The notes beneath the pieces were generated by a model that worked only from the letters and a program-made list of their open reading frames with translations, was not told the origin of the DNA and did not search any database. Source: Terramyces sp. JEL0728 (taxonomy: Eukaryota; Chytridiomycota; Chytridiomycetes; Rhizophydiales; Terramycetaceae). From it: 15,812 nucleotides of DNA. The DNA is taken from the NCBI GenBank assembly GCA_027603945.1, contig JADIIU010000201.1, positions 1 through 15,812 on the forward strand, in the 5' to 3' direction. A program made the translations under genes and the position numbers. The first letter of the stretch is position 1. Each line of letters opens with the position of its first letter. Of this stretch, positions 2,235-15,812 are shown in pieces.

Positions 2235-3965
2235 TTAATAGTAACCATGATGAGCGGTGGTAGTTGCTGGAGGTTGAGTGGTGGTAGTAGTTGGAATGAC
2301 TGTGGTGATTTTTGGTGCATCAGTGGTAGTGATCTTTGGAGCGTCGGTAGTTGGTTTGATATAACCAGTAGTGGTTTGTGCTTGGGTAGTGGTTGGAGCG
2401 AGAGTGGTTTGGACAGTAGTAGCTCCATTGGTAGTAGTTGGAACGTTGGTAGTAGTTGGAACGTTGGTAGTAGTTGGAACGTTGGTAGTAGTTGGAGCAA
2501 TGGTGCGAGTGGCAGTCTTGAATTTACCATTATCAGTGGTTGCTGGTGGGATTGTTGGCACTTTTGGGGTAGCACAGTTGGTCCACAGGTTTTTGTGGAA
2601 AGTGAACAGGTTGAATGACTGCTTGGATGACAATTCCTTGGCAAACAAGTTGATGTCGGTCTGTTCGTAAAGAGCAACGTTGAGACCATTGGTTGGACAG
2701 AAACGGAAAGCACCAGTATCAAATTCAAACCCAAGCTGGTTGTCAAATTCAACGCCAAGTTCAATCGCACTCATAGTGAGTACTTTCAAAGAAATGTCAA
2801 TGATTGGAATCAAGTGAGCAGCGATTTTAACTTGGATATCCTTGGTCATTTTAAATGGATGCTCGTTAAAAGTGGATTTGGCGACTGAAGTAATGGTTGG
2901 TTTTCCAAAGAGACCGTTGTTGGATGAGATGGTGAACTGCATCGGCAAGTCATAGTCGAAACCAAATGAAAACTCAATGTCTTCAGTAACATCGTAGGAT
3001 ACAGCAGCATCAAGTTGAATTTCAGGGCCAAAAGTAAAGAGTCCAGGCACACCGACTGGACTGAATTGGTATCCAAACAAGTTTTTTCTGTATTCAAAGT
3101 GGCCAGCATTAATATTCATATCCATATCAAGGTTGGTCTTGATTTCGCCAAACAAATCTATTTCGTAAGAGTTGATTTTGAGGAAAATGCCCTTGACAGT
3201 GGCATGGATACCAGCAGATCCCATAGCAAAGCAGTTGACGCAGTCTACTTCAGCAAATTTGGTGGAGAGCAATTGGATTTTTTGTTGAACAGCAGTTTGG
3301 GTAGCAGGGTTGTAGTTGAGATCGTATTCCTTTGAGAAACCGGCATCCTTGGACCAAGTGAGTGCATCCTGGATGGAATTGCCAAGTTTTTTAAATGGAG
3401 CAGAAATAGTATCCCAAAAGTTTCTTTTTGTAAGCGAACCAGAGTTGTCTTTGGATTGGATTACTTCCAAAGTAAAGTTTTGCATAACAGTTCCAATGTC
3501 AAGCGGTTGGAAATCAATGTTCAAAGTTAAGCCTTGAACTACAAGTTTAGATACATGGTAAGTAGACACACCATTGGTTCCGTGGCATTGGGTTTCGTGC
3601 GAAAGGAAGAGTGCGAGATTGGCAGTGTTTGACCATTCGTTGAATGCTTCGTTTACGTGGTTATTGTCATCAAACTTTACTTGAATTTCATTTGGCAGAC
3701 AAGCGACACCAACAATGTGTGGAAAGTTGGCGAGGTTGACAGTTGGTCTGGTGGTTTGAATGTTCATTCCAGCGACGGCAACTTGATCTGAAGTAGCTGG
3801 TAACTTGTAAGCAGCTTTGATAGTAGTGTGGGCAACATAGTCAGTTCTAGGTACGGGGATAGTATCAAGAACAGCTAATGGTTTTTCTTGAGTCTTGTAG
3901 GAATTTTTGCATTTAGGTTTGGAGTATACGGACAATACCAAAGCGGAAACAAACAAAAAGTTCAT
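2235..3965 (-). CDS. Secreted Thr-rich protein, paralogue B
   Basis: A complete intronless frame of 576 aa. Residues 1-16 form a signal peptide. A beta-rich N-terminal domain is followed by a KR dibasic site at 180-181, a C242-V-N-C245 pair, a VGVPGLFTFGPEIQLDAA segment near 304-321, FCPTN at 422-426 and WTNC at 461-464. A Thr/Pro tail from about 469 to the end contains TTTNVP repeats. The tail ends in a polar HHGYY with no hydrophobic segment, so a GPI anchor is unlikely. It shares all landmarks with paralogue A upstream, including the KR position relative to the preceding FTLEV motif. Resemblance to the fungal DUF7223-type secreted proteins is from memory. Function is unknown; an extracellular or wall glycoprotein is inferred. 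An AATAAA hexamer shares the last base of the stop codon. Confidence 0.92.
   Translation of the reverse strand: MNFLFVSALVLSVYSKPKCKNSYKTQEKPLAVLDTIPVPRTDYVAHTTIKAAYKLPATSDQVAVAGMNIQTTRPTVNLANFPHIVGVACLPNEIQVKFDDNNHVNEAFNEWSNTANLALFLSHETQCHGTNGVSTYHVSKLVVQGLTLNIDFQPLDIGTVMQNFTLEVIQSKDNSGSLTKRNFWDTISAPFKKLGNSIQDALTWSKDAGFSKEYDLNYNPATQTAVQQKIQLLSTKFAEVDCVNCFAMGSAGIHATVKGIFLKINSYEIDLFGEIKTNLDMDMNINAGHFEYRKNLFGYQFSPVGVPGLFTFGPEIQLDAAVSYDVTEDIEFSFGFDYDLPMQFTISSNNGLFGKPTITSVAKSTFNEHPFKMTKDIQVKIAAHLIPIIDISLKVLTMSAIELGVEFDNQLGFEFDTGAFRFCPTNGLNVALYEQTDINLFAKELSSKQSFNLFTFHKNLWTNCATPKVPTIPPATTDNGKFKTATRTIAPTTTNVPTTTNVPTTTNVPTTTNGATTVQTTLAPTTTQAQTTTGYIKPTTDAPKITTTDAPKITTVIPTTTTTQPPATTTAHHGYY
2428..2499 (-). 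repeat. 18-bp tandem repeat encoding TTTNVP
   Basis: Three perfect copies of an 18-bp unit (plus-strand ttggtagtagttggaacg) are followed by a fourth that differs at its end. They sit in frame in the Thr-rich tail of paralogue B and encode TTTNVP units. The unit is a multiple of three, so copy-number change would lengthen or shorten the tail without breaking the frame. Paralogue A has similar but degenerate Thr repeats. Confidence 0.9.
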
Positions 3966-4956: not shown

Positions 4957-5587
4957 CTACACACTAGAAGAATCCAAGTGCTTGTCAAAAGTATCTCTAA
5001 TAACAGCAGAAATGGGCTGCTGCTCCATACTAAACGCAGGATTAGAATTCGCCAAATTCAAGTAATAACTCTGTATAGTCGACTCGGAACAAGCCAGCCT
5101 CCAATCCAAAACTTTACAGAACTCCAGTTCAATGATGTTCAATTCCGAGAGAGATATCCCGCCTACTTTTGCAAAGAATGAGTTTGTGGAATATACGTCT
5201 GATATGTACTTGCAGCTAGCAGTGACTGAAGCAATAATGAATCTTGTTAATTTAAAAGTACCTGTGAGCTGTTAGGCTGGATATAGTGAAATTGGGATAT
5301 AGCTTACACATTCTATCGACGTATACTAGCAGCATGATCAACACACTCTTTTCAACGATGGTGTATTTGAATATTCTGGTCAAGTAATCCTGAATACTGA
5401 TTCCTGGAGGCGAGCGAGAGTGAAATCTAGTGATATTCGCCAAGGTAACTGGGATATTATCGTTGTACTGTAAAAGCTTGTTGAACATATCGACGATGAG
5501 TCTGATCAGGTACTCTGGCTGGCAATCAGTGTAGTGCGGTGGCAGAGTAACCGTTTGTGTCTCTATCTTTTGCTTTTTCCGATGCAT
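4957..5587 (-). CDS. Pho80/Pcl-type cyclin, two exons
   Basis: Exons are 5262-5587 and 4957-5242, separated by a 19-nt intron (5243-5261, GTACTTTTAAATTAACAAG). Splicing gives 203 aa. The Pho80-type cyclin box is unmistakable: FHSR, then DYLTRIFKYT, then VDRMCKLYPNFTISSLTAHR before the joint, and FIIASVTASCKYISDVY after it, followed by FFAKVGGISLSELNIIELEF and WRL. Without splicing, the frame stops four bases into the conserved HRF(L/I)I motif, so the intron is strongly supported. Proteins of this family bind Pho85/CDK5-like kinases and act in phosphate, glycogen or cell-cycle signalling. Which subfamily member this is (Pho80, Pcl6/7) cannot be decided from the sequence alone. The protein is little more than the cyclin box, with a short Lys-rich start. 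Confidence 0.9.
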
Positions 5588-6082
5588 AGTGAGTGGTATC
5601 TTTGGCCAGTCTTTTAAAAGGAAACAATGCCTGCCTTTTTCACTCAGTAAAGGGAACTAAGAAAAAAACGTGGTGGATGATTGCTTCAGAGATTTTTAGC
5701 GTAAGCATTGACATTTACATGCATTAAGAGTAGACTGTTTTAATAAAACCTTTATTTCGATTTTTATTAGTTGAGCAGAGATTTACGCAACCCCAGAAAT
5801 AAACCAGAATGCTTCGCCGCTAGAGCATCTAAGTTTGGCCAAAGCCGACAGGTTCCGAATTATGATATACTAGGTACAATCCAACGAAAGAATAGTCAAG
5901 AGATAGTTTCGTCTGGACTCGCATTCATCCGTGATTATTATGCAAGTGATCTATCCGTTTGGCGGCCAAGAAAAGGTTTGGGATATATTCATCCACACGA
6001 AACTAAAGAATCTCTTTCAATAGTCCTTACAATTGGATTTACCCATTTCTCGGCACTCGAATCTTTTCCGACAAACACAAGG
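5588..6082. other. Intergenic region: cyclin promoter and 3' flank of the 7-TM gene
   Basis: These 495 bases separate two minus-strand genes. A plus-strand frame is open from 5771 to 6301, but it begins with TTG, has no recognisable motif, and its right part is antisense to the 7-TM exon. I see no RNA gene or repeat. Confidence 0.5.
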
Positions 6083-6935
6083 CTATTTATTAATTTCAGT
6101 CTGATTTTCTCTTTTCCTAAAGCATTTCACAATATCTTTAAGAGAAAACAAGTTTACCAGTCCAAGAATATTCAACAGAGAATAATTGCCATGACTGATA
6201 TTTACCAGCGCGTTTCCACCAACAATCCCATCAAACCCCCATACAGATACGTCAATACTACTGTTGAAAATACAAAACAGTGCGGAAATAATCCACCATA
6301 ACGAGTACCCAAGTGTAGTTACTCTACACCTTTGTACTTTTTTATGCAGCACATCTTCTTTAATCCGGTCTTTCAAGAACCCTTTTAGTTTTGATGAGAG
6401 GTAAAAGTACTGCCAGAAAACGTGAATAGAAATTATGCACAAGTTGATTGGATAGCCATACCTGCCCCACTAGATTAAAGACACTTACCCAATTCAAGAT
6501 CTTGTTATTGGTGCCAATGAGTAGGTACCCACCGCCAAACGTCAAATTCATACAAACGGAAACTATCTGAAGAATAACGAGTTGCTGGTCGGTTAATCCA
6601 AATAAAATCTTGAAAGATCGTAAATGTTCAATTTCAGTCAACTGTATACAAAGATTATGAAAGAAAATCAGTGTATACTCTGTCCATATCCAGCCCCCAC
6701 CGACCTCCATCCCTCGAATCAACATCCAAGAAATATAAACTCTAATCAGAACCCCGCAAAGTGAAAGTACATTCAAGAAAATATACAGCCTTCTAAAAGT
6801 ATTGTTAAGTCCATGTAGCTTTAGTTTAATAAAAAACATCAAGTTTGTGATGCACGTTAATAGGACTGTTAGGATGTAGAATACTGAGAGGATGAGGAAT
6901 TGGAATGTATTATCGGTTGATAGGGTGTAGAACAT
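6083..6935 (-). CDS. Unrecognised polytopic (about 7-TM) membrane protein, two exons
   Basis: Exons are 6489-6935 and 6083-6469, separated by a 19-nt intron (6470-6488, GTAAGTGTCTTTAATCTAG). The spliced protein has 277 aa. Hydrophobic segments lie near residues 11-37, 47-71, 82-98, 117-141, 155-173, 199-217 and about 225-258. A basic, Lys-rich loop (RIKEDVLHKKVQR) lies between the fifth and sixth. Without splicing, the first frame reads on into a different hydrophobic sequence and stops at 6360. The splice joins ILNW to WGRYGYP and keeps the membrane pattern, but there is no family alignment to confirm the joint. I do not recognise the family; a seven-TM receptor-like layout is only an inference. 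The last codons AAT AAA TAG embed an AATAAA signal. Confidence 0.75.
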
Positions 6936-6958
6936 AATGGGAATTTATGTAGTATTGC

Positions 6959-6966
6959 TTTTATAG
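6959..6966 (-). promoter_or_regulatory. TATA box of the 7-TM gene
   Basis: The minus strand reads CTATAAAA about 24-31 nt upstream of the ATG at 6935, the same close spacing seen at the two secreted-protein genes. Confidence 0.4.
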
Positions 6967-7078
6967 ATTTACGTCATTTGTTATAACCATAGCGGGATTC
7001 TATTTCCACTATAAGCGGGCAATTCCCCACCAACACGTTAGATAAATAGATGAGAATCGCAGATAATAGTGAAACGCG

Positions 7079-8250
7079 CTATTTATTAAGACACCCGGGA
7101 CAGTTGTGCAGCACTTCGTGTATATAAACCTCGCAGTCACCACAAAAAACATTCTGACACTTTCGACACTGAAAAGTGCTCTTGGATTTACAACAAAAAC
7201 AGCTTCCACTCCCATCGACAAAACTAGCAACCGGGAATAAGTGGTGGTACGATCGAGATAAACTTGGCGAGCTAACTAGCGTAAGTAGACAGACGGGACA
7301 ATCCCTTGGTATTTCACACACAATTACTTTGCACCTTGGACACTTGTGTCCACTGGTAATCATCTTTAAATGGCTAATTAATAATAAAGTACCATGCACA
7401 GACAACATCTTTTAAGTGTATTGTATTCGGAAACCCCATCTGTATCATTTGTGATTTTGTCATTAGTGGCGGTGGTGGGATGGTATTAAACAGTAATTCT
7501 CTGTAGTGTGCTTGGTTTTGAACAACGTAAAAGCTGCCTCCGGTTGATTTACAAATCTTTTCACAAATATGCATTTGGGCTGATAGGTTGATTACTGATG
7601 CTCTGATATTGTCTGTTTTTAGTTTATCGATTGTTTGGTCCAAGTCGCCTGGATCACAAGTGTTCAGTGCTCCATATAGTACAAGTATTTCTCTTGATAC
7701 ATGTGTGGGCACTGTTATAAGTGCTTGTCTGGCTAATTCAAGACTGTTTTGCAAACTTGGTTCACCACTAGGACTATATCTCTGATTAACCACTTTTGAC
7801 AGTGAATTAGGCGATGCTAGCCAGTCACTTAGCCGTTCACCAACACCATCTTTTGTAGATAAAAGTAAAATCGAAGAGAGTGGGTTCTGATCAAGGAATT
7901 CCGAAAAGTAGGATGAAAGTAGAGTGAGTGTATGGTCGAGTCTATTTGGTCGCAAATCCAATTCAGCCATTGTCCTGCAATTAGTACTCTTTCAATCTGC
8001 GGTATAACTGCAGATACAGCTGCATGATTCAACTGTGTATGACTTACCTTGAACAGTCAATGATGATTACCAAGTGTCTAATGATGCCACGTTGCACTAC
8101 CAAATCAACCCTATTCGTCTTCTTTTTCTTCAGCGCCAACACTGATTTAAGAATGGATCCATTTTCATCTTCTTTTACTACATCCCAAGATCGTTTGTAC
8201 TGTTCCTCCCATGCATAATTATTTGCCTTTTGTTCCTCGTCGTCCTCCAT
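7079..8250 (-). CDS. SSL1: TFIIH subunit p44 (Ssl1/GTF2H2), three exons
   Basis: Exons are 8048-8250, 7393-7974 and 7079-7373; introns are 73 nt (7975-8047) and 19 nt (7374-7392). The spliced protein is 359 aa, shorter than yeast Ssl1. It begins MEDDEEQ with the typical W-x-x-x-Y-x-R-x-W-x-V stretch, and a vWA-like domain starts at RHLVIIIDCSRTM. Family landmarks follow: LDLRPNRL, DQNPLS, GEPSLQNSLELA, TCDPGDLD, INLSAQMHIC, CKSTGGSFYV and PPP. The C-terminal zinc part contains CACHLK, CPRCKVIVCEIPRDCPVC, LSRSYHHLFPV and a C4 RING-like end closing with CPGC. The 19-nt intron lies inside the C-x-C-H-L motif and the 73-nt one inside DCSR-TM, both exactly repaired by splicing. In TFIIH, p44 contacts and stimulates the XPD helicase in transcription and nucleotide excision repair. 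The start at 8250 is the first ATG of the family-like N-terminus. Confidence 0.95.
7975..8047 (-). other. 73-nt intron with yeast-like TACTAAT branch motif
   Basis: It begins GTAAGT and ends TACTAATTGCAG, and is removed between DCS and RTM of p44. It is the only intron of ordinary length in the window. The branch A lies 6 nt from the end, as in the ultrashort introns, but 66 nt from the 5' end instead of 13-14. Confidence 0.88.
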
Positions 8251-8289
8251 TATGAAACAGATTTCAGAAAGCAAGTTTTACTTTTTTTA
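8251..8289. promoter_or_regulatory. 39-bp divergent spacer between p44 and Bet1-like genes
   Basis: The start codons of p44 (minus) and the SNARE gene (plus) are separated by only 39 bp. Both promoters must therefore share this spacer or lie in each other's transcribed sequence. It contains a run of T on the plus strand but no TATA box that I can see. Confidence 0.7.
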
Positions 8290-8576
8290 ATGTACCAGAC
8301 AGAATACAGCGACTCTCTACATTCCCGAGTCTCACAACTAAAGCAAATATCAATAGATATCGATTCTGAATTACAGTATCAAAAGACAATGATGAAAGAT
8401 ATGGTACAATTTATTTTATTTAGGAATCAGAGTTTGATTTCTTTGGGACCAATTTACAAGGAGCAATTAAAAAAGTCAGGCATTTGATAAAGACTCAGAG
8501 CGGAAGCTGGATGTGGATTTTAATGATGTTTGTAATGGGAGTGTTTATGTTTATCTACTTTTTCCTAATAAAGTAA
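8290..8576 (+). CDS. Bet1/Sft1-like Qc-SNARE, two exons
   Basis: Exons are 8290-8403 and 8424-8576, with a 20-nt intron (8404-8423, GTACAATTTATTTTATTTAG). The 88-aa product starts MYQTEYSD and has a heptad SNARE region (VSQLKQISIDIDSELQYQ, then MMKDM joined to ESEFDFFGTNLQGAIKKV). It ends in a tail anchor (WILMMFVMGVFMFIYFFLI) with two residues after it. The pattern aligns with Bet1, including a glutamine at the presumed zero layer (Q31) and the M-[DE]-S-[EQ]-F-D segment that spans the splice joint. Such proteins drive ER-Golgi or intra-Golgi fusion. The N-terminus is shorter than in yeast Bet1, and Sft1 is a possible alternative. Without splicing, the frame would end without a membrane anchor. 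AATAAA overlaps the last sense codons before the stop. Confidence 0.9.
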
Positions 8577-8767
8577 TCCTGTATAGCATTTGTCGTATGG
8601 TATTTGGACTACCGTGGTTGTCTTGAGAGCGGAGTACGATGGCATGGAACACTAGTTGTCTCTGAATTTATCTTGCAGTTACACAAGTTGGGTAGCCTTT
8701 ACACTGGCTAGCATGATGCTGTATTACTGCCTCTAATGAGTCTCTTGGTTCTTGTTGAATTTATCTG

Positions 8768-9215
8768 TTAACGCAATACCCTCACAAATACAAAAAAGTA
8801 AAGCTTAAAGTTTAATAGTGTTTTCTGGAGCTGATTAAAATGCCCTCCCATTAAAACCAACAACTCTTTTTGGTCCAAATCCTCGTTAAACAACCTCATC
8901 ACAAAGTACCAAACAAGCACTATTCCAATCAACACAATCACTGCTTTAATTGCAAACAAAATTGGCTTTAAAATGAGTTTAATGCTCAAAAGTATAAATT
9001 GAACAGAGAGACAAGTGAGGAAGATTGCAATCTAGATTAATAACAATTACAATTAGAGTTGTTTGTTCCGGGTACAAGTTGTATTCTTTTGGGATTGATT
9101 TTTGAATTAGTTGACTGGTGTGGTAGATTACATTTAATAGAGAAACTGCTACCAGTTGAATCAATTGCAAGATTTCAGACATTTTTAGATTTCTTTTCTG
9201 GACAATTTTGCTCAT
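8768..9215 (-). CDS. Small membrane protein, possibly Apq12-like, two exons
   Basis: Exons are 9051-9215 and 8768-9031, with a 19-nt intron (9032-9050, GTAATTGTTATTAATCTAG). The spliced protein is 142 aa. Hydrophobic stretches lie at about 15-30, 52-72 and 77-101, followed by an acidic short loop (NEDLDQKE) and a Phe-rich end. The intron joins PEQTTLI to IAIFLTCLSVQF, giving one continuous membrane segment, whereas the unspliced frame runs into polar sequence and a stop. Size and layout resemble fungal Apq12, a nuclear-envelope/ER protein for lipid homeostasis and nuclear pore assembly, but this is from overall pattern only. An internal start at Met12 is possible. The C-terminal 35 residues are the least certain part. 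Confidence 0.65.
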
Positions 9216-9360
9216 TGTTACAATGCGATATGTTCACTAGTACCATGCAATCTTAGATCTCCAAGCTGTTTATTCAGAGTAGTTTTTATTATAAAACAAG
9301 TAATAAGAAACCACCAGGCCGACAAGGAAATAAAAGTACGTATTGAATAAGATATCTAGA

Positions 9361-10110
9361 TTAACCGTTCTTACTATTATTCTCCAAGTCAGAAGTGTCA
9401 ATCAAACCCCTGTATATATCAGCTGTGGATTCTGCATCTTGGAATATTTCATGCTCATCTACATCTGTTGAGGCTGAATCGTCCCTGTCTGAGTCCTGGA
9501 TAGCTTTGTTCTCTGAATCACTGTCTACAAATCCACCTTGGGCTGCTTTATGCAACATTTCCTGCAACTCATTCTGATCAAAACTATTAATAATATCAAC
9601 CAAAGCTTTACGTTCATCAATCTCCAATCCAGCCTCTACATTCTCATACGCTACTTGATTTTCCTCTCGCTCTTCACTATCAGTACTAATTTCATCATCA
9701 CTATCGTTGTTTACTTTTTCCATTACCCATATTTTGCCAACATGCTCAGTTTCCCATCCCATACGGTACATGTCCAACGTTTCAGTCAATTCTATTTCAG
9801 AATGCTGGATGAGGTTTATTTTATCTCTGAAATAGTTCAAGTAAGAGTCATTGGTTCGTAGCGAGAGTATTAGTGTGTGAGTAGATGGCACGTAATGGCC
9901 AGTCTTGCTTTTTGTAGCTATTACGTCAATTTCCCATTCAAAAGGCTGTTTTTGTGCAGTGAGGGTGGAGGTGTATGAAAGGTAGTGTGTTTTTAGCTTG
10001 ATTGCCGTGTTTAAAAGGGTTATTGGTTCTGGCTTTGATGTAAAGACGATTTGCGATTCTTTTTGCTGCAGGATTTTGCTCTTGTCTGCTATTGGGTACA
10101 GCAGATACAT
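9361..10110 (-). CDS. Unrecognised protein with acidic C-terminal half
   Basis: An intact frame of 249 aa with no intron. Residues 1 to about 130 are mixed and look like a beta-rich fold (for example FEWEIDVIAT and HTLILSLRTN). From about 133 onward the chain is rich in Asp, Glu and Ser (SDDEISTDSEEREEN and similar), with a predicted helical patch around ERKALVDIINSFDQNELQEM. I do not recognise the family; a small PH-like domain with an acidic tail, as in pICln, is one weak idea. It lies 106 bp downstream of the dehydrogenase gene on the same strand. An ACGCGT element is 5 bp upstream of the ATG. Confidence 0.75.
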   Translation of the reverse strand: MYLLYPIADKSKILQQKESQIVFTSKPEPITLLNTAIKLKTHYLSYTSTLTAQKQPFEWEIDVIATKSKTGHYVPSTHTLILSLRTNDSYLNYFRDKINLIQHSEIELTETLDMYRMGWETEHVGKIWVMEKVNNDSDDEISTDSEEREENQVAYENVEAGLEIDERKALVDIINSFDQNELQEMLHKAAQGGFVDSDSENKAIQDSDRDDSASTDVDEHEIFQDAESTADIYRGLIDTSDLENNSKNG

Positions 10111-10114
10111 TTCA

Positions 10115-10120
10115 ACGCGT
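10115..10120. promoter_or_regulatory. ACGCGT (MCB-like) element 5 bp before the acidic-protein gene
   Basis: The palindromic hexamer ACGCGT, known in yeasts as the MluI cell-cycle box bound by MBF, sits 5 bp upstream of the start at 10110. A second copy sits before the gene at 15553. Function here is unproven and a 6-mer can occur by chance. Confidence 0.25.
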
Positions 10121-10216
10121 CAAAATATTTGCTTGTTTGTTACAGTTTATGCACCAATGATAAAAACAGCACTCTAAAGTGGAGAGACAAAGAAAAAAGT
10201 AAAATAGAGGCTATTT

Positions 10217-11791
<1,575 letters not shown>

Positions 11792-12065
11792 TTTGAAAGA
11801 TGGAAAAAAAGTGGATTTTAATATCACCAGAAAAGGAAGGTGAAAACCTGCTGATTACCTTTCAACCAAACAGTTGGCTTCATCAAGGATATTAGCAATC
11901 GCACCGACAAGTACATTTATTTATTGGTGCTCGGTTTCATGGCGGTAGATTATTCTTGCTGAATGTAATTTCAAGAGACAGCAGTCGACCAATTTAGATT
12001 GACTCTTGGTATTCAACCTTGGCAAGTCTCTTGCAGAATAGTTTTACATTTTTCAGATCATTGAA
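11792..12065. promoter_or_regulatory. Divergent promoter region of E3 and CSN8
   Basis: These 274 bp separate the starts of the dehydrogenase (minus) and CSN8 (plus). CCAAT pentamers are present at 11989-11993 (plus) and 11933-11937 (minus strand). CCAAT boxes bound by HAP/NF-Y control respiratory genes in fungi, so a role at the E3 promoter is plausible but unproven. No TATA box stands out. Confidence 0.35.
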
Positions 12066-12577
12066 ATGCAATCTCTAGTGACAGAAAGAAATTATCCAGA
12101 AATCCTAAAGGAATGTGAATTATTGGAATTGCAGGGAAGTACTGTTATCCAATTACTCACGCTCATCATCACTGACAACTTGGCCGAAGCTAGATTGTAT
12201 ATTCTCGTTAATTTAGTCTTATAAAGCGAACAGCTGCAAGACAACCATTATTCACCCACCTAATTGAAATAGTAAACAAATTGTGGACTATGGATTACCA
12301 TTTTGACTTTGTGAATGTTGAAAATGAAGCACCAGTTGTGCAGGAATTGTATGGACAGCTGCAAGAACGAATCAAGAAAGAAATCAGACACACATTTCAG
12401 TCTTACGAATCGGTTGAATTGGCGACTCTAAAGGAATACATGACGGATGAAGAAATCCGTGCATTTGGAGAGGTGAATGACGGATATGTATATCCAAAGC
12501 CAATCCAAGTTACTCAAATAAGGGATTACAATGTTGTTGAAAAATTGGCAGATTATATTGTAGGATTGCGTTATTAG
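12066..12577 (+). CDS. CSN8: COP9 signalosome subunit 8-like protein, two exons
   Basis: Exons are 12066-12196 and 12217-12577, with a 20-nt intron (12197-12216, GTATATTCTCGTTAATTTAG). The product is 163 aa, close to the small CSN8/PSMD8/eIF3k-type subunits. The N-terminus (LVTERNYPEILKECELLELQ, then NLAEARFLIKRTA across the joint) matches the helical start of CSN8, where an NNARYLWKR-like segment occurs. The C-terminus (VYPKPIQVTQI and VVEKLADYIVGL) matches the winged-helix end of CSN8 and its last helix. The COP9 complex removes NEDD8 from cullins. An Rpn12 or eIF3k identity is less likely because of the C-terminal helix. Family similarity is low even in known CSN8 proteins, so the subunit assignment is less certain than the gene model. 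AATAAA lies 7 nt after the stop. Confidence 0.75.
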
Positions 12578-12761
12578 CTAGTAAATAAAAGGTTAAAAAT
12601 AACTCTCTTTGAAATTAGACCAGTCTAACCATTTGAACAAGGTGAGAATTCCGGGTGCATTCTCATTAAAGATTTGCTTGAGACTAGTTTTCGTTTGAGA
12701 CTAGGATTTGTTTGAGTCAAAATTAATCTGAGTCGTATTTTTTTTTTGAAAAAACAAAAAC

Positions 12762-13516
12762 ATGAGCTTTCACACAATAAAGCTGGAAACAGCCTACTCA
12801 CCAATAACAAATGGAGATTTACAAACGCATTTCACTCAGAAACAACCCAGCAAAAAGGTATATCATGAACTGTTTGTCCGTCTCAATTCTTCAAAACAAG
12901 ATTTTCCAGAAAATACGTTATTTATGGTAAACATACCAGTGGATGCTTCTGAGGCTCATTTAAAGGAATTATTTAACGATTATGGCGAAATATTACAAGT
13001 AAAGCTGCCAGTAATAATGAAAAGTGGATCCAACTGCCATGTGGTTTTCAAGGACAAGGAATCTATCGATATGATACTTGAAATTGAAACCTTACAATGG
13101 CCGGATATTCCAAGCACAAAATATATCATTGAAAAACCAGATGTTACGGCATTGAAGGAAAAAGTTGATGAAGCAATGTTGCTGTTTGAAGACTTGGAAC
13201 GAATCGAAAAGCAAAGAAAATTGGATTCTCGCAATGTCACTGACGAAGATGGGTTCGTGCTTGTTACCCGCCAAGGGAGAAAGAACAACATTGACGGGAA
13301 AGGCGGGTCTCAAGCAACCATTACCAAACAAGAAGCTGAAAAACTCAAACCAAAGAACCATGCGCTACAAGATTTCTATAGATTCCAAATGCGAGAACGA
13401 AAGAGGAACGGTAATTTTATACTAATCTAGAATTGGCTGAATTGAGGAGAAAGTTTGAGTTGGACAAGGAAAAGATTGAAAAGATGAAGCAAGAAGCAAG
13501 ATTCAAACCATACTAA
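12762..13516 (+). CDS. RRP7: Ribosomal RNA-processing protein 7 (Rrp7), two exons
   Basis: Exons are 12762-13410 and 13431-13516, with a 20-nt intron (13411-13430, GTAATTTTATACTAATCTAG) carrying a full TACTAAT. The product is 244 aa. An RRM-like domain begins at FPENTLFMVNIPVDASEAHL (about residue 48) and includes a short FNDYGEILQV strand-helix unit. After a linker with DEDGFVLVTRQGRK comes the diagnostic end, DFYRFQMRERKRNELAELRR then KFELDKEKIEKMKQEARFKPY in the same run. The splice occurs inside RKRN-ELAEL, and without it the protein would lose the conserved FKPY terminus. Rrp7 is part of the UtpC/CURI module of the small-subunit processome in 18S rRNA maturation. The stop codon overlaps an AATAAA hexamer. 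Confidence 0.95.
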
Positions 13517-13607
13517 TAAAGCACAGTAATACACTTAACATTATAGCTAGTAATACTGGTAGAAACCCGTTTATTGAAATACAGTAATGTCTTGAATACC
13601 ATTGTAA

Positions 13608-15129
13608 TTACAGAGTACGCCTGGAAACTCTCACAGGAAGATTTTCAAGCGTGTACCCAGTTCTAGTAACCGGTCTAGCAACGAAATCATCCGCTAATTC
13701 AAAACGGTATTTTTGAAGTAAATGGATAATAATCACCTTGACTTCAATCAGCGCCATTTTTTGTCCAATACAATTATGCGGACCTAAATTAGCCATCACA
13801 TACCATCGCCAAAGGGAAGATAAGATCCAGGAACGTGAGGATCGTCCCATCTATCAGGATTAAACACCTGTGGATCTGTGTAGTACTTTTCGCTCATATG
13901 GATGGCGCAAATGAGGATGGTGATCATGGTATTCCGAGGAATAGAGTATCCAAGTAGTTCAATGTCGTCCAGGCATTTGCGATCCAACCCATCAAAAATT
14001 GGATACATTCTCAGCACTTCTTTGGTAAACTTGTCCAAATATCTATTTTAGCGCCAGTTACTTTAAATCATTTAATAGTTCAACTTTCGAACTGTTTTCC
14101 AGCTCAAATTCTTTGACTTCGTCGTACAATCGTTCTGCAATTTGTTTATGCTGGCAAACCATGTAAAGTGACCACGTAAGAGTAGCAGCAGTAGTTTCGT
14201 GGCCTGCAAAGTAGAATCCAATGAGTTCGCCATACATCTCCTCCTTTGTAAAGCCCTTGAATTAGCTTGGATTACATTTTCTTCTTGGAGTAATCGAGCA
14301 AGTACGTTTTCTTTTCCGTTGCTCTGACTTGCAAGATTGTCAAAGAAATCAAACAGCTTTTTCCGATTCTTTTGTACAAATGTACTACTGGTAGATACGC
14401 CAATTAGTCCCCACATGAATCGTGGAAATATAACTCTCCATTTGATCGGGCCAAAAGTAAATTCTTCCAATTCTTTCCAGTGCTACATTAAAGACGTTTA
14501 CCCATTCAATATTGTCCTTTAATTTGGAGGTTGCACCGAAATTGTGCCCAAAAGCAACCACAGATATAATATCCAGAGTAATTGACTTGAATGCAGTGGT
14601 AAATTCAATCTCGGATTTACCGGCCAATACCAGATCAAAGTCCTTCATTGTTTGATGCGCAACTTGCCCAGCATGACGAAGATGGAGTGGTGCAAATGCT
14701 GGCTGAATCAATTTCCTGTGCTGTTTCCACACTGGTCCTTCCAATTGGAATAGAGCATTATCCAATAACCCGACTGCTATTGTCTTTACAAACAAGTCTG
14801 ATTTGACAAATCCAGAAGACTTTAATATCCTTTTGGCTTGCTCTGCATCTACAATATAAACTGTTGGGCTATATTAAACAATCGTACCCCAGCAACCACA
14901 GCTTGAAAATATCTCCATATATTCCAGCCATTTTGAGGAAATATTCTTGTCGCTTTCCAGTTATCATTAAATGTATTAGCGAAGGGTTCTTTACAATTGG
15001 ATATGCTTTCGGTCCTGGTATTTTTGACAGCGGACCAAAGTACTCAATTGCTTGATCATATATCACCTTGACTATTACAGCAGCTGATCCGGCAATAGCG
15101 ATTGTAGCAATGTATTTGTTCACTTCCAT
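13608..15129 (-). CDS. Cytochrome P450 monooxygenase, six exons
   Basis: Exons are 14888-15129, 14502-14868, 14276-14482, 14062-14255, 13804-14042 and 13608-13783; introns are 19, 19, 20, 19 and 20 nt. The 474-aa product is complete. It has an N-terminal membrane helix with the hinge LSKIPGPKAYP, a C-helix WKQHRKLIQPAF, the I-helix AGHETT near residue 289, the ExxR motif in KEVLRMYP (about 344-347), the FNPDRW meander, and the heme loop FGDGPHNCIG with Cys421. The last splice falls inside the heme loop and is required to make it. Sequence style (LEGPVWKQHRKLIQPAF, AGHETTA) is close to CYP4/CYP3-like clans, which hydroxylate lipids and xenobiotics, but the substrate cannot be told. It is convergent with RRP7, 91 bp apart. 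Confidence 0.96.
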
Positions 15130-15156
15130 GTTGAATATTTGAAAAAGTTCTTGTAG

Positions 15157-15200
15157 CCGAATCCGCGGATTACATTCGGGAATACTGAAAGCCGCCGAAT
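15157..15200. promoter_or_regulatory. Cluster of CCGAAT/ATTCGG motifs upstream of the P450 gene
   Basis: CCGAAT occurs at 15157-15162 and 15195-15200, and its reverse complement ATTCGG at 15174-15179. A perfect 12-bp palindrome AATCCGCGGATT overlaps at 15160-15171. They lie 28-71 bp upstream of the P450 start. Inverted CGG/CCG triplets are typical of Zn2Cys6 fungal regulators, so an operator-like cluster is plausible but unproven. Confidence 0.4.
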
Positions 15201-15226
15201 GTTTCTATTTAAACCGTTGCATACAG

Positions 15227-15247
15227 GTATAAAGTTATACTAACAAG
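15227..15247 (+). other. Intron-like element (21 nt) with TACTAAC
   Basis: The sequence starts GTATAAAGTT and ends TACTAACAAG, fitting the local ultrashort-intron consensus including the CTAAC-AAG end. No coding exon chain confirms it. It could be a 5' UTR intron of the small ORF that follows. Confidence 0.35.
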
Positions 15248-15272
15248 GAATTGCAATGTTTTTGACTGAATA

Positions 15273-15431
15273 ATGGATACAATTAGATATTGGATTACTA
15301 AAACCAAAGGCAGGAGTATAAATATATTGCCGAGACATGGGCTGTCAATGGAGCAACTAATCGAGTTGAGAATCCCTCTAGCAAGTAAATTGGTATTAAA
15401 CTGGAGATGGCCCTCAATACCTGATTGGTGA
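15273..15431 (+). CDS. Possible 52-aa basic protein
   Basis: An ATG-initiated frame of 52 codons encodes a basic peptide (WITKTKGRSINILPRHGLSM, then QLIELRIPLASKL, ending SIPDW). The composition looks protein-like and soluble. It lies 25 nt after an intron-like element on the same strand. I recognise no family; a small mitochondrial ribosomal protein is only a guess from its basic character. The region is also open on the other strand, so the call is tentative. Confidence 0.35.
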   Translation: MDTIRYWITKTKGRSINILPRHGLSMEQLIELRIPLASKLVLNWRWPSIPDW

Positions 15432-15540
15432 TTTTTGTCGCAGCCCTTATAGAAGACTGCCATGTTAATATTGATTGAAGAGTTATGCCATCAATTTCAG
15501 ATTTCACTAGAATTCTCGCCTATTAATAGGATTTGAATTT

Positions 15541-15546
15541 ACGCGT
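15541..15546. promoter_or_regulatory. ACGCGT (MCB-like) element 6 bp before the last gene
   Basis: The same hexamer as at 10115-10120 lies just before the ATG at 15553. Both flanked genes encode acidic unknown proteins. The significance is unproven. Confidence 0.25.
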
Positions 15547-15552
15547 TTTTTG

Positions 15553-15812
15553 ATGATTCACAGTGAAGGAGAAGAACTAGAGCTGCTACAAAAAGTATAT
15601 CACACTAACCCAGTTTTTAATTCATATCGCAACTCAGGATTACAAAAATGCTATTCCATTAGCAGAAAAATTACACAAGTTGAACCCCGATAATCAAATG
15701 TTTGAAGAATACAAAGTTGTTTTAGATCAACGACAAAAGCAGATTGAAGAAGAATTACTAGAGCTGGAAAGCGAATCTGAGAGTGACGAAAGTGAATCAG
15801 AAGAATCTGAAT
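15553..15812 (+). CDS. Acidic protein with TPR-like start (3' end outside window)
   Basis: Exons are 15553-15594 and 15614 to the window edge, with a 19-nt intron (15595-15613, GTATATCACACTAACCCAG). The first 14 residues are MIHSEGEELELLQK. The spliced chain then reads FLIHIATQDYKNAIPLAEKL and HKLNPDNQMFEEYKVVL, which resembles a single TPR-like helical pair. A Glu-rich helix follows, then an acidic Ser/Glu run (ESESESDESESEESE). The layout recalls metazoan glutamate-rich proteins with a short TPR-like domain, but no family is assigned. Without splicing the first frame soon stops. The gene is cut by the window edge. Confidence 0.7.

Follow-up and report, generated by a model that had tools for sequence, protein, structure and literature searches.

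Predicted introns of 19–21 nucleotides in the chytrid fungus Terramyces sp. JEL0728

Introduction

Introns of about 20 nucleotides (nt) are documented in few lineages. The passages of PMC10245619 that deal with intron size give 16–17 nt for mikrocytids, 18–21 nt for chlorarachniophyte nucleomorphs and 15–16 nt for heterotrichs. Here we analyse a stretch of DNA from Terramyces sp. JEL0728, a fungus of the Rhizophydiales (Chytridiomycota), in which a sequence-only reading had noticed introns of 19–21 nt, hereafter called mini-introns. That reading had named the nucleomorphs and, with shorter introns still, Stentor as precedents; the same passages agree with it and add the mikrocytids. The window is a whole contig of 15,812 bases, and the assembly to which it belongs comprises 15.0 megabases (Mb) in 231 contigs.

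The described systems resemble Terramyces to differing extents. On the relevant sections of PMC10245619, chlorarachniophyte nucleomorphs share its narrow intron size range and its many introns, but a nucleomorph is a relic nucleus with >800 introns in ~300 genes, whereas Terramyces is a 15-Mb fungal assembly. Mikrocytid introns, in the same sections, are likewise short and uniform; they occur in a parasite with 224 introns and 17–19 spliceosomal proteins, whereas 314 introns of 18–23 nt are predicted in 250 kilobases (kb) of Terramyces. The 15–16-nt introns of Stentor, as the intron sections of PMC9505925 present them, have in common with those of Terramyces a GUA donor, a short tail and a narrow length distribution, and both are AU-rich (75.63% in Stentor, 75% in the intron interior of Terramyces). 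The branch A of Stentor lies at position 10–11 with no strong branch consensus, whereas that of Terramyces lies mostly at 14–16; Slu7 and Prp18 are listed there as not found in Stentor and are found in Terramyces. Trichomonas, in the intron passages of PMC12316389, has a class of 23–25 nt beside a longer one, much as Terramyces has a short class and longer introns, but unlike Terramyces its genome is intron-poor, with 63 active introns.

For the fungi, the sections of PMC8476143 on intron density and size say that Chytridiomycota, two of which appear in its Table 1, retain high intron densities, and they give Cryptococcus, at a mean of 63 bp, as the short-intron example, with no case near 20 nt. 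No fungus with introns of ~20 nt appeared in titles or abstracts among the matches listed from the open literature, and the intron passages of the chytrid genome papers examined give no intron lengths. The kind of intron is known already; the fungal host and the tested splicing factors that accompany it are new to the literature searched.

Results

Removal of the mini-introns restores ten reading frames

The sequence-only reading had listed nineteen GT-AG segments of 19–21 nt (one GC-AG) in ten genes, whose excision was said to give single reading frames. All nineteen were located and their ends checked (Table 1): nine are of 19 nt, nine of 20 nt and one of 21 nt, the acceptor is AG in every case, and the donor is GT in 18 and GC in one (11342-11361). 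Strings of the form GT..TAAY..AG and of about this size occur frequently by chance in the window, and therefore the proper test is restoration of the frame, set against controls. Gene models were accordingly rebuilt from each ATG, with and without the mini-introns. With the segments removed all ten genes are open, the last of them as far as the contig end; with the segments kept in, each of the ten meets a stop ahead of its spliced end. The spliced products have 484 residues for dihydrolipoyl dehydrogenase (E3), 474 for the cytochrome P450, 359 for p44, 277 for the seven-transmembrane (7-TM) gene, 244 for RRP7, 203 for the cyclin, 163 for the CSN8-like gene, 131 for the Apq12-like gene, 88 for the SNARE-like gene and at least 80 for the last gene. 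The labels 7-TM, Apq12-like and SNARE are those of the sequence-only reading; Pfam returns no match for the first two and one below cut-off for the third. The frame also chooses between two candidate donors near 11470 in the E3 gene, requiring the one that gives 21 nt (11463-11483), as with the 19-nt version the protein ends after 100 residues. Longer introns also occur: p44 carries one of 73 nt (7975-8047), absent from the earlier list, whose donor and branch signals are those of the mini-introns.

Thirteen of the 19 joints fall within strong homology matches (E3 5/6, P450 5/5, and the single joints of p44, cyclin and RRP7), all of them in the five genes for which conserved sequence had been claimed at the joints. 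The spliced E3 protein aligns over residues 19-484 with the mitochondrial E3 structure 3rnm (PDB), which we take to be human, and five of the six joints lie inside this alignment, with no gap at the joints. Each of the five P450 joints falls within the PF00067 match at 38-448, and in p44 the joints of both the 19-nt and the 73-nt introns are inside the SSL1 match. The spliced RRP7 protein and the deposited Terramyces one (P0001) are identical, and the RRP7 joint also lies inside an alignment of 18 rows. The CSN8 and SNARE joints are in matches below the Pfam cut-off, and four mini-introns (7-TM, Apq12-like, last gene and the first of E3) are supported by frame and signal.

Table 1. Mini-introns and related elements of the window, with the evidence for each
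Feature	Position	Strand	Evidence
19-nt intron, cyclin gene (ATG 5587, stop 4957)	5243..5261	-	joint within PF08613 match 49-158, 122 bits
19-nt intron, putative 7-TM gene (6935-6083)	6470..6488	-	frame and signal only; no Pfam match
19-nt intron, TFIIH p44/SSL1 gene (8250-7079)	7374..7392	-	within phmmer stretch 10-359 to SSL1
73-nt intron, TFIIH p44/SSL1 gene, GTAAGT...TACTAATTGCAG	7975..8047	-	joint between IIDCS and RTMAELDLRPNR, gap-free vs SSL1
20-nt intron, small SNARE-like gene (8290-8576)	8404..8423	+	Use1 match below cut-off, 16.9 bits
19-nt intron, Apq12-like gene (9182-8768)	9032..9050	-	frame and signal; no Pfam match
Possible further mini-intron, end of gene 10110-9361	9356..9374	-	signal score 9.5, loop 14, tail 5
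20-nt intron 6, E3 gene (11791-10217)	10280..10299	-	frame, E3 homology
19-nt intron 5, E3	10923..10941	-	frame, E3 homology; also found by content-only model
20-nt GC-AG intron 4, E3	11342..11361	-	frame, E3 homology; also found by content-only model
21-nt intron 3, E3; in-frame TGA when retained	11463..11483	-	frame, E3 homology
20-nt intron 2, E3	11620..11639	-	frame, E3 homology
20-nt intron 1, E3, in presequence	11748..11767	-	frame and signal; outside homologous stretch; same joint in NCBI model P0097
20-nt intron, CSN8-like gene (12066-12577)	12197..12216	+	PF10075 match 20.1 bits, below 23.7 cut-off
20-nt intron, RRP7 gene (12762-13516, stop included)	13411..13430	+	NCBI protein P0001 100% identical
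20-nt intron 5, cytochrome P450 gene (15129-13608)	13784..13803	-	joint after residue 416, in PF00067 38-448
19-nt intron 4, P450; branch CTAAA	14043..14061	-	within PF00067
20-nt intron 3, P450	14256..14275	-	within PF00067
19-nt intron 2, P450	14483..14501	-	within PF00067
19-nt intron 1, P450	14869..14887	-	within PF00067
19-nt intron, last gene (ATG 15553, cut by contig end)	15595..15613	+	frame and signal only; no Pfam match

Predicted introns of 19–21 nt dominate a sample of the assembly

Intron lengths outside the window were tabulated in 250 kb of the 15.0 Mb, drawn from 25 other places. Twenty of these are one fixed stretch in each of the 20 longest contigs; of the other five, one was picked because it carries Slu7. 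The content-only model is a hidden Markov gene finder guided by coding content, in which any GT/GC..AG element of 8–130 nt may be an intron at the same flat cost. In this sample it predicted 137 introns, 54 of them at 19–21 nt; with seven wrong donor–acceptor pairs the same class received 1, 1, 2, 2, 3, 4 and 5. This model is insensitive, recovering two of the 19 mini-introns in the window. A signal model was also given donor and branch signals derived from the content-only set (elements of 18–23 nt, window introns excluded), with the branch motif seeded with YTRAY and sought 4–14 nt from the end, GT/GC and AG required, equal prior weight given to 12–24 nt and 25–200 nt, and an upper limit of 200 nt. 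It recovers 16 of the window's 19, missing the cyclin, SNARE and 21-nt E3 introns. Across the sample it predicts 412 introns: 314 at 18–23 nt (275 at 19–21 nt), three at 12–17 nt and 95 at 24–200 nt. Six controls gave 22–58 at 18–23 nt, 6–29 at 19–21 nt, 6–39 at 12–17 nt and 274–360 at 24–200 nt, and 19–21 nt is the only length class that exceeds them. The long-intron counts in the controls are inflated because real mini-introns stay unexplained there, and therefore they set no limit on how many long introns are real. A codon-usage scan at loose thresholds showed a rise at 19–20 nt for GT-AG over noisy controls; at strict thresholds it found nothing.

The proposal that a gene-rich fungal genome uses introns of ~20 nt as its main class is supported by the recurrence of the peak in these 25 places. 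A genome-wide peak at 19–20 nt had also been expected; the gene models place it at 19–21 nt over the 250-kb sample. Predicted coding sequence carries 1.58 mini-introns per kb, with at least one in 91 of the 120 predicted genes. At 314 per 250 kb, the full 15.0 Mb would by extrapolation contain ~19,000, in an assembly that seems to include some duplicates. Near-identical sequence is present on contigs C199 and C111, and match scores on C30 and C33 are equal, as with separated haplotypes or recent duplicates.

Mini-introns might nevertheless be frequent without being the main class, if models trained on them overcount and longer introns are under-detected: the window itself has a 73-nt intron, the signal model learned from elements of 18–23 nt, some long candidates score high, and the two models end at 130 and 200 nt. 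We consider this unlikely, as the content-only model already peaks at 19–21 nt under its flat cost from 8 to 130 nt, and the signal model, with its equal prior, places 95 introns at 24–200 nt against the 274–360 of the controls (long introns not being bounded by that difference).

The predicted joints outside the window were also compared with homologous proteins. There are 33 predicted complete genes with short introns only (97 introns), of which 12 were taken to homology searches. A CDK has all four joints in gap-free stretches against CDK2, Slu7 has three of three within PF11708, and AP-2 alpha has five of seven within adaptin domains. Joints inside matches number 3/4 for a bestrophin, 2/5 for an HMG protein, 2/4 for cyclin B, 1/2 each for a Rad51-like and a Brix protein, and 0/2 for an EF-hand protein. 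In a mitochondrial carrier one of four lies in the best stretch (two more stretches were not located), and in CybS one of two, at the very edge.

Anatomy of the mini-introns

The counts in this section refer to the 314 introns of 18–23 nt predicted by the signal model. The donor begins GTA, the commonest forms being GTAAT (79), GTAAG (33), GTAAA (31) and GTATT (30); a G at +5 is therefore not favoured. Donors are GT in 313 and GC in one (GT/GC and AG being imposed by the model), and acceptors are TAG in 203, CAG in 80, AAG in 28 and GAG in three. The branch motif is YTRAY, with TTAAT (88), CTAAT (56), TTAAC (36) and CTAAC (26) together accounting for 206; it is also plain in the introns found by the content-only model, which has no signals. 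Counted from the first G, the branch A lies at 14 nt in 140, 15 nt in 122, 16 nt in 30, 17 nt in six and at less than 14 nt in 16, and thus at 14–16 nt in 292. The tail after the branch A is 5 nt in 134 and 6 nt in 133 (267 in all). Total length is mostly 19–22 nt, and the interior is 75% AT, compared with 60.5% in the sample. The mini-introns of the window, which played no part in signal training, have a loop of 14–15 and a tail of 4–6 in 18 of 19; the SNARE-like intron (8404..8423) is ambiguous, its sole branch motif being TTTAT rather than YTRAY.

U12-type introns have the donor RTATCCTTT. In a comparison confined to GT/GC donors this form does not stand out, GTATC falling outside the 14 commonest. 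If retained, 54 of 60 predicted 21-nt introns of known phase would bring in an in-frame stop. In Paramecium, introns that could be read through are counter-selected; we do not claim the same here, as the gene finder favours such introns.

Splicing factors in the assembly

U2 small nuclear RNA (snRNA) was found at 140.2 bits against a 46-bit cut-off (GTGTAGTATCTGTTC), with the branch-binding GUAGUA present (usual GTGTAGTATC stretch). Five splicing proteins were sought (Slu7, SF1, Prp18, CWC25 and U2AF65), and Slu7, SF1, Prp18 and CWC25 (36.6 bits) were found above cut-off. Loss of Slu7 or Prp18 as the cause of the short distance from branch to AG is rejected, since both genes are present.

Relatives and deposited annotations

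The RRP7 alignment holds 18 of 96 matches, Terramyces included. Two of the 17 relatives, environmental proteins P0004 and P0005, each have an insert of seven residues (GNPIANI and GNFVSNV) precisely where Terramyces has its intron. By back-translation these can be read as G followed by GTAAY...CTAAY.TAG, that is, as a 21-nt intron retained in frame. In an RRP7 tree of 23 rows, P0004, P0005, Terramyces, Globomyces, Kappamyces and two others form a supported branch (99/97), within which support is weak and P0004 sits on a long branch.

The deposited Terramyces annotation splices the RRP7 intron identically (P0001); its E3 model (P0097) departs from ours at two of the six introns, 10923..10941 and the GC-AG intron 11342..11361. 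Fifteen of 120 listed matches to E3 were aligned, and at 10923..10941 a Boothiomyces E3 entry lacks the same residues as P0097. A Boothiomyces annotation follows the Apq12-like gene until the intron site and then diverges. P0219 seems to read from one gene on into its Apq12-like neighbour, and P0097, P0140 and P0219 are cases in which Terramyces and Boothiomyces annotations differ at mini-intron sites.

Other features of the window

The candidate at 9356-9374 has a strong mini-intron signal. If it were spliced, the present stop codon of gene 10110-9361, which would sit in the branch site, would be lost and the product would gain a hydrophobic C-terminal tail; on the other side, a Boothiomyces homologue terminates at an equivalent position. 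A further mini-intron-like element, GTATAAAGTTATACTAACAAG, lies on the + strand at 15227-15247, ahead of the last gene and perhaps within a 5' untranslated region. At the other end of the contig, 1-1525 and 2235-3965 are two similar genes on the - strand with no predicted introns, whose products are probably secreted and have threonine-rich C-terminal ends; 2235-3965 has a DUF7029 match and an exact 18-nt tandem repeat at 2428-2496.

Discussion

In the window the mini-introns are real, in the sample they are dominant, and they are most likely normal spliceosomal introns of near-minimal length in a chytrid. Reading frames, homology at the joints and a common set of signals make it very probable that they are U2-type introns whose length has come down close to the minimum in Terramyces and, probably, in its close relatives. 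The major spliceosome would then remove them by the ordinary two steps, through a lariat of ~14–15 nt, the short tail leaving no space for a polypyrimidine tract. General knowledge of splicing suggests that a spacing of 14–15 nt would leave little room between donor and branch-site contacts; at such close range the two sites are probably recognised jointly or one after the other, and their tight spacing may itself help to mark an intron. Longer introns remain in use, as the 73-nt one of p44 shows, and therefore the machinery seems to have been extended downwards and not replaced. Spacings fall away sharply below 14 nt, which suggests that the Terramyces spliceosome meets a steric limit there, above the 10 of Stentor.

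Several observations weigh against this interpretation. Excision is a prediction from DNA sequence and reading frames. The signal model learned from its own predictions with a YTRAY-seeded branch, and the motif counts are biased that way; its TG..AG control still yields 29 introns at 19–21 nt, and the controls reach 22–58 at 18–23 nt against 314. Exonic decoys are weakly depleted (25 at 19, 20 and 22 nt against ~31, the mean of other lengths), an effect too weak for selection against decoys at intron spacing to be claimed. The TOP1 gene model, although clearly TOP1, is flawed: two of its joints coincide in position, and relative to TOP1 it has inserts of ~7 residues. Twelve of the 17 RRP7 relatives continue through the intron site without an insert, and three (Globomyces, P0015 and Gorgonomyces) diverge there. 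The U2AF65-like gene, read exon by exon, stays below its family cut-off (251.7 against 310.3 bits), and the U2AF65 search also matched in two bacterial control genomes. U6 snRNA was not found in the assembly by an Rfam covariance search and three patterns, nor U1 by an Rfam search that had no positive control, and no conclusion is drawn from either negative. Two 27-bit U6 candidates below cut-off proved to be near-identical duplicates with no Rfam match at the gathering score. Those pattern places that were inspected (2/9 from one pattern set, 1/6 from another) showed no further U6 features by eye, and control patterns read backwards matched too. U6 may be missing from the assembly, diverged or itself split by an intron.

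Removal or bypassing of the segments without a spliceosome, by IRE1/tRNA-type splicing or by ribosomal bypassing of the kind found in some yeast mitochondria, would accommodate both the failure to locate U6 and U1 and a length below that of usual introns. It is nonetheless very improbable, given the GT-AG ends, the fit of the branch motif to the GUAGUA stretch of U2, the presence of branch-site and second-step factors, and a 73-nt intron that bears the same signals. That the segments were inserted by sequencing or assembly error, or that the genes are decayed, with a splice-like look arising by chance, is hardly credible even though GT..TAAY..AG strings of this size are common and the case is built on DNA, as separate loci have one donor, branch motif, spacing and length in common, wrong dinucleotide pairs yield a small fraction of the count, conserved housekeeping genes are affected, and two relatives have compatible RRP7 inserts at the same site.

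We put forward, tentatively and with somewhat less than even confidence, a broader possibility: that a chytrid clade, comprising at least Terramyces and near relatives, may have converted nearly its whole intron set (~19,000 by extrapolation) to 19–22 nt while keeping Slu7 and Prp18, reading donor and branch as a composite element and fixing the 14–16-nt spacing as an identity signal. A reduced genome and spliceosome of the nucleomorph or mikrocytid type is not what we find in Terramyces, with its 15.0-Mb assembly and four of the five splicing proteins sought above cut-off, the fifth below.

For gene prediction the findings are a warning: the deposited Terramyces E3 differs from ours at two of its six introns, and the RRP7 inserts of two relatives fit retained introns. 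In the portions of the literature examined, mini-intron genomes belong to relic nuclei, reduced parasites or ciliates. If the present interpretation is true, introns of 20 nt can be reached without genome reduction and without loss of Slu7 and Prp18, a lariat loop of ~14 nt is tolerated by a fungal spliceosome, and the lower size limit of splicing would become testable by comparison among fungi.

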